In this document: positions 28,313 to 35,051 of the stretch, piece by piece
How positions within the stretch are numbered: the stretch's first letter is position 1
Layout: every line of letters starts with the position of its first letter
Assembly: GCF_001425665.1 (NCBI RefSeq)
Contig: NZ_LMCX01000002.1
Span: 1 to 64,000 of the forward strand
Length of the DNA stretch: 64,000 bases
Source of the DNA: Yonghaparkia sp. Root332
GTDB taxonomy: Bacteria; Actinomycetota; Actinomycetes; Actinomycetales; Microbacteriaceae
Direction of reading: 5' to 3'
Position numbers and translations under genes: made by a program
The notes under the pieces: generated by a model
The model's database searches: none
What the model was told of the DNA's origin: nothing
What the model saw: the letters and a program-made list of their open reading frames with translations, nothing else

Positions 28313-29812
28313 GTGTCGACCCTCTCCGATCTCGTCCACGAGCACGCGGCTCTGAGCGACGCCGACATCGAGTGGCTCCACCTGCTGATCGCGGAGGGCC
28401 AGCTGCTCGCCGACCTCGCGTTCGCGGACATCGTGCTGTGGGTTCCGACCACCGGGGGCGGCTTCGTCGCCGTCGCGCACGCGCGCCCGTCGAGCTCGGC
28501 GACGCTGTTCTACCGTGACTTCGTCGGCCAGGAGATTAAGCCCGAGTGGCGCCGCCAGGTGACCCAGGCCTTCGAGACCGCCCGTATCGTCGACTCCAGC
28601 GCGCCCGACTGGTACGAGGAGACGCCCACGCGCGTGCGGGCCGTGCCCGTCGTGCGGCGGCTGTCGCCGGGCGGGAAGGCCGTGAGCGAGCATCCCATCG
28701 CGGTGATGACGCGCCACACCAACCTGAGCGAGGCGCGCATGCCGAGCCGCCAGGAGCTGACCTTCAACGAGTGCGCGAACGACCTGTTCGAGATGATCGC
28801 GAGCGCCGACTTCCCCGACATGGCCGCGCCGAGCGGCCCCCGCCGCGGTGCCCCGCGCGCCTCCGACGGGCTGATCCGTCTCGACGTCGACGGCACGGTG
28901 ACCTTCGCGAGCCCCAACGGACTGAGCGCCTTCAACCGCATGGGCTTCGCCGGCGAGCTCGAGGGCGAGTCGCTCGCCGACGTCACGACGCGACTGCTGC
29001 ACGGCAAGCTCGTCGTCGACGAGTCGCTGCCGCTCGTCGTCACCGGCCGCGCGCCGTGGCGCACCGACATCGACGCGCGCGGCGTGACGGTGAGCCTGCG
29101 GGCGATCCCGCTGCGGCTCGGCGGCGTGCGGATCGGCGCGATCGTGCTCGTGCGCGACGTCACCGAGGTGCGGCACCAGGAGCGCGAGCTCATCACCAAG
29201 GACGCGACGATCCGCGAGATCCACCACCGCGTGAAGAACAACCTGCAGACGGTCGCCTCGCTGCTGCGCATCCAGGCCCGCCGAACCCACAGCGAAGGGG
29301 CGAGGGATGCCCTGACGCAGGCCATGCGCCGCGTCGCCGCCATCGCGGTCGTGCACGACACACTCTCGGAGGGGCTCAACCAGAACGTCGACTTCGACGT
29401 CGTGTTCTCGCGCGTGCTCATGCTCATCGCCGAGGTCGCCTCGAGCCACAACACGGTGGTCCGTCCGAAGTCGACGGGCAGCTTCGGCACGCTGCCGAGC
29501 GAGTACGCGACGCCCCTCGCGCTCGCTCTGACGGAGCTGGTCACCAACGCGGTCGAGCACGGGCTGGTCGGCCGCTCGGACGGCGAGGTGGAGATCGTCG
29601 CGAGCCGCACCGACGACAGCCTCGCGGTGAAGGTGCGCGACAACGGCGGAGGGCTGCCCGAGGGCAAGGTCGGGTCCGGGCTCGGCACGCAGATCGTGCG
29701 CACGCTGATCCAGGGCGAGCTCGGCGGCACGATCGACTGGCACACGCTCGAGGGCGAGGGCACCGAGGTCACGATCGAGGTCCCGCTGCTCTACCTCAAG
29801 CGTCGCGCATAG
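28313..29812 (+). CDS. pdtaS: Sensor histidine kinase PdtaS
   Basis: 499 residues, soluble, no membrane helix. An N-terminal GAF-like domain (about 1-150) and a PAS domain (about 180-285) precede the HisKA_2 helix IREIHHRVKNNLQTVASLLRIQARR (His304/305). The ATPase domain has ALTELVTNAVEHG, VRDNGGGLP and GSGLGTQIVRTLI. PdtaS works with the RNA-binding antiterminator PdtaR in actinobacteria and senses nutrients or nitric oxide and copper in mycobacteria. The pdtaR gene is not in this window. A WhiB1-type gene follows convergently, as next to pdtaS (Rv3220c) in M. tuberculosis. Confidence 0.93.
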   Translation: MSTLSDLVHEHAALSDADIEWLHLLIAEGQLLADLAFADIVLWVPTTGGGFVAVAHARPSSSATLFYRDFVGQEIKPEWRRQVTQAFETARIVDSSAPDWYEETPTRVRAVPVVRRLSPGGKAVSEHPIAVMTRHTNLSEARMPSRQELTFNECANDLFEMIASADFPDMAAPSGPRRGAPRASDGLIRLDVDGTVTFASPNGLSAFNRMGFAGELEGESLADVTTRLLHGKLVVDESLPLVVTGRAPWRTDIDARGVTVSLRAIPLRLGGVRIGAIVLVRDVTEVRHQERELITKDATIREIHHRVKNNLQTVASLLRIQARRTHSEGARDALTQAMRRVAAIAVVHDTLSEGLNQNVDFDVVFSRVLMLIAEVASSHNTVVRPKSTGSFGTLPSEYATPLALALTELVTNAVEHGLVGRSDGEVEIVASRTDDSLAVKVRDNGGGLPEGKVGSGLGTQIVRTLIQGELGGTIDWHTLEGEGTEVTIEVPLLYLKRRA

Positions 29813-31459: not shown

Positions 31460-31532
<73 letters not shown>

Positions 31533-31534
31533 CG

Positions 31535-31613: not shown

Positions 31614-32246
31614 GTGGTGTTCGGTCCCGAGTTCGCGGCGTTCCTCCTGACGTCGATCGTCATCATCGTCGTGCCCGGCCCCGGCGTGCTGTTCGTCATC
31701 GGGCGCGCTCTCGCGCTCGGCACGCGCGCGGCCCTCCTGAGCGTCCTCGGCGGCGCGCTCGGCGTCGGCCTCCAGATCGCGTCGGTCGCGCTCGGCGTCG
31801 GGGTCGTGATCGCGCAGTCGGAGCTCCTGTTCACGATCCTGAAGATCGCCGGCGCACTCGTCCTCGTCTGGCTGGGCGTGCAGTCGATCCGGCACAGGAA
31901 CGAGTTCGGCGAGCAGGAGCTCGACCCCGTGACGCCGCGCACGACGACGATCGTGCGCGAGAGCGTCGTGGTCGGCATCACGAATCCGAAGACGATCGTC
32001 TTCTTCGTGGCCGCGCTGCCGCAGGCCGTCGTGCCGGGCGGTGCCGAGCCGGCGGTGCAGATGCTGCTCCTCGGCGCGATCTTCCTCGTCATCGGCATCG
32101 TGAGCGACGGGCTCTACGGCATCGCGGCCGGCACGGCGCGCGAGTGGTTCGCCTCCAATCGCAGCCGCATCGCCGCGGTGCGCGCGGCGGGGGGAGCGGC
32201 GCTCATCGTGCTCGGCATCGTCATGGCCTTCGCGGCGCGCTCCTGA
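31614..32246 (+). CDS. LysE/RhtB-family exporter
   Basis: 210 residues with six transmembrane helices. The N-terminal signature VPGPGVLFVIGRALALGTRAALLSVLGGALGVGLQ (about 20-55) is diagnostic for LysE/RhtB amino-acid and metabolite exporters. NPKTIVFFVAALPQAV is the second family motif. The substrate is unknown. It lies 69 bp upstream of the iron-box-linked ligase/acyltransferase gene. No terminator separates them, so it could export a related product, but the two probably have separate promoters. Confidence 0.9.
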   Translation: MVFGPEFAAFLLTSIVIIVVPGPGVLFVIGRALALGTRAALLSVLGGALGVGLQIASVALGVGVVIAQSELLFTILKIAGALVLVWLGVQSIRHRNEFGEQELDPVTPRTTTIVRESVVVGITNPKTIVFFVAALPQAVVPGGAEPAVQMLLLGAIFLVIGIVSDGLYGIAAGTAREWFASNRSRIAAVRAAGGAALIVLGIVMAFAARS

Positions 32247-32293: not shown

Positions 32294-32312
32294 TTAGGCT
32301 AGCCTTACCTGC
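32294..32312 (+). promoter_or_regulatory. Iron box (DtxR/IdeR-type operator)
   Basis: TTAGGCTAGCCTTACCTGC matches the DtxR/IdeR consensus TTAGGTTAGSCTAACCTAA at 15 of 19 positions, with the core AGGCTAGCCT a perfect palindrome. It lies 3 nt before the ATG at 32316 and covers possible -10 elements (TAGGCT, TAGCCT). An iron-loaded DtxR-family repressor bound here would block transcription in iron-replete cells. Confidence 0.65.
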
Positions 32313-32315
32313 GCC

Positions 32316-35051
32316 ATGGCCTCCGTTCTCCCCGCCTCGATCGCGCGCTCGCGGGCGACCCCGGTCGCGCACCCGTTCCTCGGTGGGGGAGACGAGCAGG
32401 TCGCGCTCGTGGGGGAGCGCGGGGCGACCTCGTACGGGGAGCTCCGCGACCGCGTCGTGCAGCGCTCCGCGCTGCTCGGCGCCGACCGCCGGCTCGTCAT
32501 GCTCGCGGCCCGTCGGGACGAGGAGACGATCGTGAGCCTGCTCGCCGCGCTCGCGGGCGGGCATCCGGTCATCATGATCGACGGCGAGAGCGACGCGGGC
32601 GCCGCCGAGACGCTGCGCGCGGGCATCCTCGCCGAGTACGACCCCGACACGATCGTCTCGTCGGTCGACGGCGAGGCGCGCCTCGAGCATCGCCGCGACG
32701 CGAGCGCCCACGTGCTGCACCCCGACCTCGCGCTCCTTCTCAGCACCTCGGGCTCGACGGGCTCGCCGAAGCTCGTGCGCCTCTCGCGCGGCAATCTCGT
32801 GAGCAACGCGCGCAGCATCGCCGAGTACCTCGCGCTCACCCCCGCCGACCGCGGCGCCACGACCCTGCCGCCGCACTACTGCTACGGCCTCTCGATCATC
32901 ACGAGCCACCTCGCCGCCGGCGCGAGCGTGCTGCTCACCGACCGCTCGGTCGTCGAGCCCGCCTTCTGGAGCGAGGTCGAGGCGGCCGGCGTGACCTCGA
33001 TCGCGGGCGTGCCGCACTCGTTCGACCTCATCGAGGCCTCGGGAGCGCGCCCGCTCGAGCTGCCGGCGCTGCGCTGCCTCACGCAGGCGGGCGGGAAGCT
33101 CGGACCCGAGCGCGTGCGGCGCTGGGCGCGCGCGTCGGCCGCGCACGGCCTCGACTTCGTCGTCATGTACGGCGCGACCGAGGCGACCGCGCGCATGGCG
33201 TACCTGCCTCCCGCGCTCGCCGAGGAGCGCCCCGAGGCGATCGGCATCGCGATCCCCGGCGGCGCGCTGCGCATCGACGCGCCCGATGACGAGGGATGCG
33301 GCGAGCTCGTCTACTCCGGACCGAACGTCATGATGGGCTACGCCTCGACCGCGGCCGACCTCGCTCGCGGGCCCGAGCTCGACGAGCTGCGGACGGGCGA
33401 TCTCGCGCGGCTCGCCCCGGACGGCCTCGTCGAGATCGTCGGCCGCTCGAGCCGCTTCGTGAAGCTCTTCGGCCTGCGCGTCGACCTCGACCGGATCGAG
33501 TCGCTGCTCGCCGAGAAGGGAATCCCCGCCTACGCCGTCGACGCCGACGACGCCGTGCTCATCGGGTCGCCGTCGTTCGACGAGCTCGAGTGCGTGCCCG
33601 GGCTGCTCGCCTCGGCGACCGGGCTGCCGACCCGCAGCTTCCGCGTCGCCATGGTCCAGGAGCTCGCCGTGACCTCGAGCGGGAAGCCCGACCGGGCGGC
33701 GTTGCGGGCCATCGCCGAGCGCGCCGTCGAGAGCGCCGTCGAGAGCGCCCTCGTCACCGAGCCGGCGCCCGTCGGCGCGGTGAGGACCCTCGAGCGGGCC
33801 GCGACCGACGGGTCGGCGGCGCTCGCCGAGGCCGTCCGGAGTCTGTACGCGGTCGTCCTCGACCGACCGGACGCCGCCGTCGAGGACAGCTTCGTCGCGC
33901 TCGAGGGGGACTCTCTCGCGTACGTCGAGGCGGTCGTGCGGCTCGAGCGGCTCGTCGGCGAGCTGCCGCGCGACTGGCCGTCGCTCACGGCGGTCGAGCT
34001 CGGCGCGATCGCGAGCGAGCGCCGGGCATCCGCCTCATCGGGCGAGCGCCGCGCCGCCCATCGCGAGGCCGATCGCGGCGGCGGCCCGGCCGCACCCGCG
34101 CGCGCGTCGCGCTGGTCGACCGCGACGCTCGAGGCCCCCGTCGCGCTGCGCGCCCTCGCGATCATCCTCATCGTCGGCACGCACGCGAACCTGCTCGGGC
34201 TGCAGGGCGGTGCGCACGTGCTGCTCGCCGTGCTCGGCTACAACCTCGCGCGGTTCCAGCTCGCGGGCATCGACCGCGCCGCGCGCGTGCGCAGCCTCCT
34301 GCGCGCGACCGCGATGATCGCCGTTCCCGCGACTCTGTGGATCGGAGCCGTAGGCCTCACGACGGGAGCGTACGAGCCGACGACCGCCCTGCTGGTGAAC
34401 TCCTGGCTCGGCGAGCCCGCCGGCTGGGCGAGCGCGACGTGGTCGGAGCAGTGGCGGTTCTGGTTCATCGAGGCGGCCGTCGCCGGAGCGCTCCTGCTCG
34501 CGCTGCTCGTCGCCGTGCCCGCGCTCGACCGGCTCGAGCGTCGGCGGCCGTTCGCGCTCGCGCTCGGCGCCGTCGGCCTCGCCCTCGCCGCGCGGGTCGT
34601 GGCGACCGGCGGCATCACGTCGGGCGCGGTCGAGCGGTACGCCCCACCCGGGGTGCTCTGGCTGCTCGCCCTCGGCTGGCTCGTCGCGCGTGCCGGGTCC
34701 CGGTCGCAGAGGGTCGTCTCCTCCGTCGTCGCCGTCGTCGGCACCGTCGGCTTCTTCGGCGACGCGCAGCGCGAGGCCGTCGTGATCGCGGGCCTGCTCG
34801 CGCTCGTCTGGGTGCGCGCGGTGCGTCTGCCGCGCATCCTGATGCCGATGGTCACCGCGGTCGCCTCGGCGTCGCTGTTCGTCTACCTCGTGCACTGGGA
34901 GCTGTACCCGCTGCTGGAGGACGACGCCCCGCTCGCGGCGACCGCGGTGTCGTTCGCGGCGGGGATGCTCGTGTGGGCTCTCTGGCGCAGAGCGCTCCGC
35001 CTTCCCCGCTGGGGTCGACGGCTCGCGGTGCGCGCCCGATCGACGACCTAG
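32316..35051 (+). CDS. Adenylation - carrier - membrane acyltransferase (AT3) fusion protein
   Basis: 911 residues with three parts. Residues 1-470 are an AMP-forming adenylation domain: A3 motif STSGSTGSPK (143-152), YGATEAT, RTGDLARL (359-363), FVKLFGLRVDLDRIE and TSSGKPDR. Residues about 495-565 are an acyl/peptidyl carrier with phosphopantetheine Ser533 in ALEGDSLAYVE. Residues about 605-905 are an acyltransferase-3 domain with about ten transmembrane helices and the intact R-X10-H motif (Arg612, His623). One chain could therefore activate an acid, hold it as a thioester and pass it to an acceptor at the membrane, much as separate DltA, DltC and DltB do. The substrate and acceptor are unknown. 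The upstream iron box suggests induction under iron limitation. Confidence 0.88.
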   Translation: MASVLPASIARSRATPVAHPFLGGGDEQVALVGERGATSYGELRDRVVQRSALLGADRRLVMLAARRDEETIVSLLAALAGGHPVIMIDGESDAGAAETLRAGILAEYDPDTIVSSVDGEARLEHRRDASAHVLHPDLALLLSTSGSTGSPKLVRLSRGNLVSNARSIAEYLALTPADRGATTLPPHYCYGLSIITSHLAAGASVLLTDRSVVEPAFWSEVEAAGVTSIAGVPHSFDLIEASGARPLELPALRCLTQAGGKLGPERVRRWARASAAHGLDFVVMYGATEATARMAYLPPALAEERPEAIGIAIPGGALRIDAPDDEGCGELVYSGPNVMMGYASTAADLARGPELDELRTGDLARLAPDGLVEIVGRSSRFVKLFGLRVDLDRIESLLAEKGIPAYAVDADDAVLIGSPSFDELECVPGLLASATGLPTRSFRVAMVQELAVTSSGKPDRAALRAIAERAVESAVESALVTEPAPVGAVRTLERAATDGSAALAEAVRSLYAVVLDRPDAAVEDSFVALEGDSLAYVEAVVRLERLVGELPRDWPSLTAVELGAIASERRASASSGERRAAHREADRGGGPAAPARASRWSTATLEAPVALRALAIILIVGTHANLLGLQGGAHVLLAVLGYNLARFQLAGIDRAARVRSLLRATAMIAVPATLWIGAVGLTTGAYEPTTALLVNSWLGEPAGWASATWSEQWRFWFIEAAVAGALLLALLVAVPALDRLERRRPFALALGAVGLALAARVVATGGITSGAVERYAPPGVLWLLALGWLVARAGSRSQRVVSSVVAVVGTVGFFGDAQREAVVIAGLLALVWVRAVRLPRILMPMVTAVASASLFVYLVHWELYPLLEDDAPLAATAVSFAAGMLVWALWRRALRLPRWGRRLAVRARSTT

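Follow-up and report, generated by a model that had tools for sequence, protein, structure and literature searches.

What does a bacterium do with an acid-activating enzyme, its carrier and a membrane acyltransferase that are joined in one chain and placed behind a putative iron-responsive operator? The question is raised by a gene of the actinobacterium Yonghaparkia sp. Root332, located within positions 1 to 64,000 of contig NZ_LMCX01000002.1 (this 64,000-nt stretch is called the window below). The gene encodes a 911-residue protein that combines an adenylation domain, a phosphopantetheine carrier domain and a membrane domain of the AT3 type, and a putative operator of the DtxR/IdeR type lies directly before it. 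From sequence comparisons, we propose, with a probability of about 0.6, that the product is an iron-repressed, self-loading transmembrane acyltransferase, which would attach an acyl group to a lipid, glycan or small molecule outside the cytoplasm and in this way assist the uptake of ferric iron by an FbpABC-type transporter. A preliminary description of this DNA had recognized the domains and the operator; the FbpABC-type partner was absent from it and was found through the conserved neighbourhoods of related genes.

Iron boxes at the gene and its relatives

The box before the gene, TTAGGCTAGCCTTACCTGC, matches the consensus TTAGGTTAGSCTAACCTAA at 15 of 19 positions and ends 3 nt ahead of the ATG, exactly as first described. 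Given this position, the message is probably leaderless or has a very short leader. Relatives were drawn from two samples: the best 80 of at least 549 stretches encoding relatives (81 loci with the window), and a genome set of 36 loci, made up of 7 loci and a further 29, the only ones obtained from 46 other class-search matches. The two sets may share species, and related species within them are not independent of one another. A site was counted as a box when it matched at least 14 of 19 positions and lay in the interval from −250 to +40 around a script-selected start codon (the site of locus L119 lies at +7). The chance level of 0.0058 per 270 bp comes from 22 such sites over 1,023,029 background positions in these loci; it also counts the boxes of Fbp genes and is hence generous.

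Within the genome set, 27 of the 36 loci carry a box of their own, spread across 12 of 13 family codes. An Fbp gene lies within 1.5 kb in 23 of the 36, and 35 have either the box or the Fbp gene, the exception being L114, whose best site reaches 12/19. Among the 81 loci, a box stands near the start in 17, namely the window, 15 actinobacterial loci and L072, a metagenome-assembled genome labelled Rubrivirga whose box is identical to that of L053. Restricted to actinobacterial-type loci (46, one of which is cut at its 5′ end, leaving 45), the counts are 16 with their own box, 21 with one ahead of the adjacent FbpA gene and 30 with either. Because sites of this quality occur at 27 of 36 relatives with only about 0.006 expected at each, we regard the box above the window's gene as real and not a product of chance. 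Its conservation in orthologues, on which the preliminary description had staked its reading, is thus found in both samples (27/36 and 16/45). Together with the link to ferric transporters described below, the boxes at relatives support control of the gene by a DtxR/IdeR-type regulator of iron starvation; two DtxR-type genes (PF02742) score over the cut-off in the window's genome.

The same genome places the box among other iron genes. Across its 2.63 Mb, a pattern tuned to the window site and allowing at most one mismatch finds three places, with none in the control. They precede FbpA, an FTR1 iron permease and the window's gene, the last being circular as evidence, as the pattern was tuned on the window's own box. 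With three mismatches, the same pattern gives 13 rows at 5 places, which is not above the control (14). The longest open reading frame (ORF) for FbpA starts 5′ of its box, and the real FbpA start therefore probably lies later. A weak DtxR-like site at C1:997647-997670 (L126/L127) lies before one of the two DtxR-type genes, an assignment made by position with the gene start unmapped, and it perhaps reflects autoregulation. Elsewhere, a scan of 20 rhizobial loci showed a TGACT-n5-AGTCA palindrome 50–65 nt before the gene in four of them (L050, L057, L058 and L059).

A ferric transporter as probable partner

The neighbours conserved beside the gene are a solute-binding protein (SBP) with the Pfam domain SBP_bac_6, a 526-residue permease with a double BPD_transp_1 domain and an ATPase with TOBE_2. 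No NCBIfam model scored over its cut-off for the SBP, permease or ATPase. In sequence searches of the PDB, 27 of 28 matches (E ≤ 1e-5) of the SBP from the window's genome, and 29 of 31 matches of the SBP from L015, bear names of proteins that bind or transport iron; both tallies include YfuA and SfuA, which we take to be iron proteins. The Tyr-Tyr pair that is typical of FbpA is present in all 32 SBPs compared. Genes for an Fbp SBP or permease occur in 30 of the 45 actinobacterial-type loci, and relative to fbpABC the gene is found last in the operon, first in the operon, convergent or divergent; the association has therefore survived rearrangement. An Fbp-like cassette also stands beside the gene in the rhizobial loci L066, L069 and L071 (SBP and permease 27–29% identical, ATPase 40–43%).

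This association extends to whole genomes. FbpA (E ≤ 1e-25) is found in 53 of 54 genomes that have the gene, within 10 kb of it in 40 of the 54. For comparison, 26 genomes without the gene were hand-picked from 40 listed, 18 belonging to the window's family and 8 to its order. At the level of family and order, FbpA is present in all 12 genomes that have the gene versus 6 of these 26 chosen genomes (Fisher 7e-6). The family alone contributes 9/9 versus 4/18 and the rest of the order 3/3 versus 2/8 (p 0.06). The gene itself is patchy: within the window's family it occurs in 8 of 199 genomes at E ≤ 1e-100, and across the class in 47 of 296 at E ≤ 1e-80, its own genome included in both counts; the three further genomes drawn from the same genus all lack it.

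No gene for making the acid or its acceptor was recognized in the unit of fbpABC and the acyltransferase gene, and both are therefore probably housekeeping molecules. In mycobacterial loci (L010-L030 and related), conserved ORF families lie downstream of the gene at about 14 loci; two representatives have no Pfam match, and these are perhaps wrong-frame ORFs.

Domains, acid and acyl donor

The three-part protein was recovered as first described, with the A3 motif STSGSTGSPK at residues 143–152, Ser533 within EGDSL, and both Arg612 and His623 in place; an in-frame stop lies directly 5′ of the ATG. Pfam assigns AMP-binding (PF00501) to residues 27–342 (E 1.7e-38) and Acyl_transf_3 (PF01757) to residues 610–886 (34.9 bits, above the cut-off of 31), and detects no condensation, thioesterase or reductase domain in the protein. 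An AlphaFold2 (AF2) model of the full chain, built from a 48-sequence alignment, has a mean pLDDT of 87.7 and a pTM of 0.56. Its individual domains are confident, their mutual placement is not, and its helical bundle starts at residue 607. Foldseek returned 626 matches to the model at E ≤ 0.001, those of the adenylation domain including MenE, PltF, LgrA and oxalate ligase. One ACPS-type phosphopantetheinyl transferase is matched in the window's genome.

The homologue search bears out a shared domain order: among 48 members of a chosen alignment, at a Pfam threshold of E ≤ 0.01, AMP-binding is detected in 48, AT3 in 42 and PP-binding in 39. Residues were counted in 76 full-length proteins, that is, the 80-locus set and the window with 5 shorter rows dropped. 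Lys457, Ser533 and Arg293 are invariant (76/76 each), and Arg612, His623 and Tyr857 are each kept in 75 of the 76. A quick tree places 43 actinobacterial rows on one side of a branch with an SH-aLRT of 99. Two relatives show the parts in other combinations. At L076 (3853-10111), an adenylation–carrier protein without AT3 has polysaccharide genes and two stand-alone AT3 genes as neighbours; at L082 (5983-10041), an adenylation protein ends in a fused GDSL domain and is adjoined by an MBOAT gene. To judge by these loci, the adenylation module is apparently a reusable acyl-loading unit for extracytoplasmic acylation.

Which acid is loaded can be narrowed by the specificity code. Its ten positions were mapped by hand on the alignment, using PheA numbering, in which Arg293 takes the place equivalent to position 331. 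The code CYSATAMARK is found in 37 of the 76 proteins, the window's included, and most others have Ser for Cys. Asp235 is needed for amino-acid substrates; the window has Cys189 at this position, all 76 proteins have Cys or Ser there, and none has Asp or Glu at any of the first nine positions. With a code lacking Asp235, an alpha-amino acid is unlikely, and the substrate is probably of another kind. The sameness of the code across relatives suggests that probably one and the same acid is used throughout the family and across phyla, and Arg293 in the pocket hints, as a guess, at a second polar or acidic group on it. The preliminary description had hoped to predict the substrate from the pocket; no single acid can be named from nearest structures as mixed as MenE, oxalate ligase, PltF and LgrA. 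Catechol or salicylate is not favoured, the code being unlike that of aryl-acid ligases.

We know of no AT3 enzyme that is fed by a carrier. The superfamily signature, as set out in PMC12423673, includes Arg-x10-His, a Gly in transmembrane helix (TMH) 2, a Gly in TMH6 and SxxxY in TMH9. The window's protein keeps every one of these elements (Table 1). The TMH2 Phe of FxxxxG, which the same source gives as a highly conserved position and not as a membership rule, is missing: the window has Leu636, Phe occurs in 1 of 76 proteins, and nearly all have Leu or Met. The TMH1 Asp is present in 2 of 76 and the first TMH3 Arg in 8 of 76; RxxR occurs near the TMH3 site in 34 of the 43 members from actinobacteria and in 10 of the remaining 33, in a region where the alignment is uncertain. 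We claim descent from AT3 through the Pfam score, and by these residues the protein does not appear to be a typical AT3 enzyme. In HGSNAT, F313 and R345 are described as reorienting upon binding of acetyl-coenzyme A (acetyl-CoA; PMC12423673), and the TMH2 Phe and first TMH3 Arg positions, as mapped here, would correspond to these two residues. Their apparent loss, together with the fused carrier, would fit a carrier-bound donor. This reading is only suggestive because most actinobacterial members (34 of 43) retain an RxxR-like motif close by. As proof of such a donor, the loss of CoA-binding residues is further weakened by stand-alone AT3 neighbours, which vary too (Asp in 2 of 4).

Table 1. 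Positions of the features discussed, in window coordinates unless a locus is given
Feature	Position	Strand or contig	Evidence or remarks
CDS, adenylation – carrier – AT3 membrane acyltransferase, 911 aa	32316..35051	+	ATG 32316, stop at 35051
DtxR/IdeR-type operator, putative, 15/19 consensus positions	32294..32312	+	Sequence, scan against background, sites at relatives
Adenylation domain, residues ~27–470; A10 Lys457; specificity code CYSATAMARK; Arg293	32394..33725	+	Pfam PF00501, AF2/Foldseek, residue counts
Carrier domain, residues ~500–560; Ser533 codon 33912-33914	33813..33995	+	PF00550, weak in window protein; family counts
AT3 (TmAT superfamily) domain, residues ~602–895; Arg612-x10-His623, Gly641, Gly787, Ser853xxxTyr857	34119..35000	+	PF01757, signature counts, AF2 helices
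FbpABC-type ferric transporter of the window's genome	L087:2670-6566	Other contig (C1)	DtxR-like box before FbpA
FTR1 iron permease	L088:3911-4831	-	DtxR-like box L088:4866-4884, ~35 nt upstream of longest ORF start

Proposed mechanism and its alternatives

In the mechanism that we propose, iron shortage would cause DtxR to leave the box and the gene to be transcribed, as the boxes at relatives suggest. The adenylation domain would then activate a common small acid other than an alpha-amino acid, possibly carrying a further acidic or hydroxyl group that faces Arg293, to judge from the code, and load it onto the phosphopantetheine arm at Ser533, consistent with the conserved carrier. The AT3 domain would take the acyl group from this arm, not from free acyl-CoA, and transfer it at His623/Tyr857 to an extracytoplasmic acceptor. 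Finally, the acylated membrane lipid, wall or surface glycan, or small exported molecule would help to deliver Fe3+ to the FbpA lipoprotein, a step to which only the genome association points. The preliminary description had inferred a self-contained system that transfers an activated acid outwards when iron is scarce. Its domain order and its iron control are supported, the latter through the boxes and the ferric-transporter link; a connection with the neighbouring exporter that it mentioned (see below) is not, and the acid appears not to be an iron-specific speciality.

Several observations weigh against this proposal. At the level of the protein, the carrier match is weak (PF00550 PP-binding, residues 506–546, E 0.0021, 18.7 bits versus a gathering score of 20.8), the AT3 domain is divergent, with weak hhalign results against two stand-alone AT3 proteins, and the 50 listed of the 626 Foldseek matches are all adenylation-type structures, none of which confirms the AT3 fold. 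At the level of regulation, a DtxR box of at least 14/19 was found at 0 of 34 relatives outside the actinobacterial set. An upstream scan of 34 non-actinobacterial relatives for Fur, Irr and RirA sites, using consensus sequences and no background, yielded at best 12/19 for Fur, 10/12 for Irr (L074) and 12/16 for RirA, of which only the Irr-like match in L074 perhaps comes near its consensus, and five loci (L016, L029, L031, L032 and L067) have neither a 14/19 box of their own nor Fbp genes in the locus DNA. As for the transporter, FbpA is unmatched in one gene-bearing genome (G326), and the three same-genus genomes have FbpA and no gene, from which it follows that FbpABC can work without it. 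The larger contrast, 53/54 versus 6/26 (Fisher 1.2e-12), mixes taxonomy in, with 42 of the 54 gene-bearing genomes coming from elsewhere in the class, and the family-and-order count is the balanced one. The conserved mycobacterial downstream ORFs may leave room for a further partner there. Moreover, the specificity code hardly differs between relatives that have an iron link and those that lack one, and the acid itself is therefore probably not an iron-specific speciality.

Tentatively, the product could be a surface-anchored iron trap, in which the carrier-fed AT3 domain, no longer using free CoA, would place an acidic acyl group on a membrane lipid or wall glycan and the resulting coat would hand Fe3+ to FbpA. 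It is unlikely, in our judgement, that the enzyme instead produces or completes a siderophore-like chelator that is small and secreted, its acid being joined to a small acceptor in export and the ferric complex imported by FbpA. The iron boxes and the FbpA association would suit such a chelator, carrier-bound acyl groups are typical of siderophore assembly, and the lack of an IucA/IucC match in the window's genome leaves room for another chelator. Three weak matches to PF13434 in this genome, two of them over the cut-off, are probably general oxidoreductases, because the same search is positive in 12 of 14 control genomes. However, no further biosynthetic gene was recognized in the conserved unit, although the approximately 14 mycobacterial loci keep their downstream ORFs, and FbpA-type proteins bind bare Fe3+, in line with the names of the PDB matches. 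The mycobacterial Fbp operon, in addition, supports siderophore-free growth according to PMC6684656.

The code shared with relatives that have no iron link would also be expected of a general decorator of surface glycans or lipids, similar to Dlt or O-acylation systems, that is induced at low iron as a wall-stress or iron-sparing response and has no role in uptake. Glycan, AT3 or MBOAT genes do lie beside some of the proteobacterial relatives sampled (outside actinobacteria, 131 neighbouring ORFs were listed, of which 10 were scanned, plus a few more). Nevertheless, both the family-and-order comparison of FbpA (12/12 versus 6/26) and its adjacency to the gene in 40 of 54 genomes point to the transporter, and we hold a role confined to decoration to be improbable. 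Acylation of the FbpA lipoprotein, or of another transporter component, would explain the pairing of the gene with FbpABC, and a lipobox-like motif is found, under a loose pattern, in 28 of the 32 SBPs compared. Yet two quite different FbpA subtypes accompany the gene (~32–38% and 50–81% identity to the query), and the acceptors described for AT3 enzymes are glycans and small molecules (PMC9558356), making this the reading that we would least expect and consider very improbable.

Known systems and neighbouring features

No description of a ligase–carrier–AT3 fusion, or of its link to iron, was found among the papers listed by full-text searches, most subscription papers lying outside their reach. 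The components are known domains that follow a Dlt-like logic in one chain; their regulatory and transport context is new. In D-alanylation by Dlt, the DltA ligase, the DltC carrier and the MBOAT protein DltB act in series, and the likeness is that a ligase, carrier and membrane acyltransferase would in both cases carry an activated acid across the membrane. By contrast, the window's enzyme is one chain, has an iron box and uses AT3 (PF01757), not MBOAT, and its family has Cys or Ser, not Asp, at position 235. With AT3/TmAT enzymes such as OafB, OatA, OacB and HGSNAT, the family shares PF01757 and these four signature elements (Arg-x10-His, TMH2 Gly, TMH6 Gly and TMH9 SxxxY) and differs in its fused ligase and carrier and in its rarely kept TMH1 Asp, TMH2 Phe and first TMH3 Arg. 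The adenylation fold and motifs are those of NRPS-like (non-ribosomal peptide synthetase-like) A-T proteins and acyl-ACP (acyl carrier protein) ligases, including MenE, oxalate ligase, PltF and AmcH, from which the window's protein is set apart by its code, its terminal membrane domain and, by Pfam, its lack of condensation, thioesterase and reductase domains.

FbpABC/SfuABC systems share the neighbourhood and the iron-box control in actinobacteria. One of them, the ferric ABC operon msmeg_3633/3635/3636, serves siderophore-independent growth at low iron and is described in PMC6684656 as an operon of three genes. The main text of that article uses neither the word acyltransferase nor the term acyl-CoA synthetase. 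A figure legend in it names an msmeg_3630-3636 operon, and a fourth gene in this M. smegmatis operon is therefore possible.

A co-occurrence of this kind points to a possible helper step in iron uptake that has not been described. Transporters of the FbpABC type take up Fe3+ free of any siderophore, and to our knowledge the way in which such Fe3+ reaches the binding protein in Gram-positive cells is poorly understood. With FbpA present in 53 of the 54 genomes that have it, the gene offers a direct handle on that question, and an iron trap, if confirmed, would be a siderophore-independent capture layer. If our proposal is true, extracytoplasmic acylation could also be studied in a compact system that runs from ligase to membrane. 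An AT3 enzyme supplied by a covalent carrier would run contrary to the view, argued in PMC9558356, that the AT3 donor is acyl-CoA and not ACP; according to the same source, the two fusion partners most often seen with AT3 are SGNH and alanine racemase.

The remaining neighbours in the window do not enter into this proposal. A PdtaS-type histidine kinase (GAF_PdtaS, HisKA_2) is encoded at 28313-29812 and has no link to the acyltransferase gene. The LysE-type exporter that the preliminary description had placed directly upstream is present (31614-32246, upstream of the box). A partnership with it is rejected, as a LysE homologue (E ≤ 1e-6) occurs, besides the window, at only 1 of the 80 loci (L003) and at 0 of the 36 genome-set loci, and on this distribution we consider the neighbour incidental. 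Upstream of the exporter gene, at 31460-31533, lies a tRNA-Lys (CTT).

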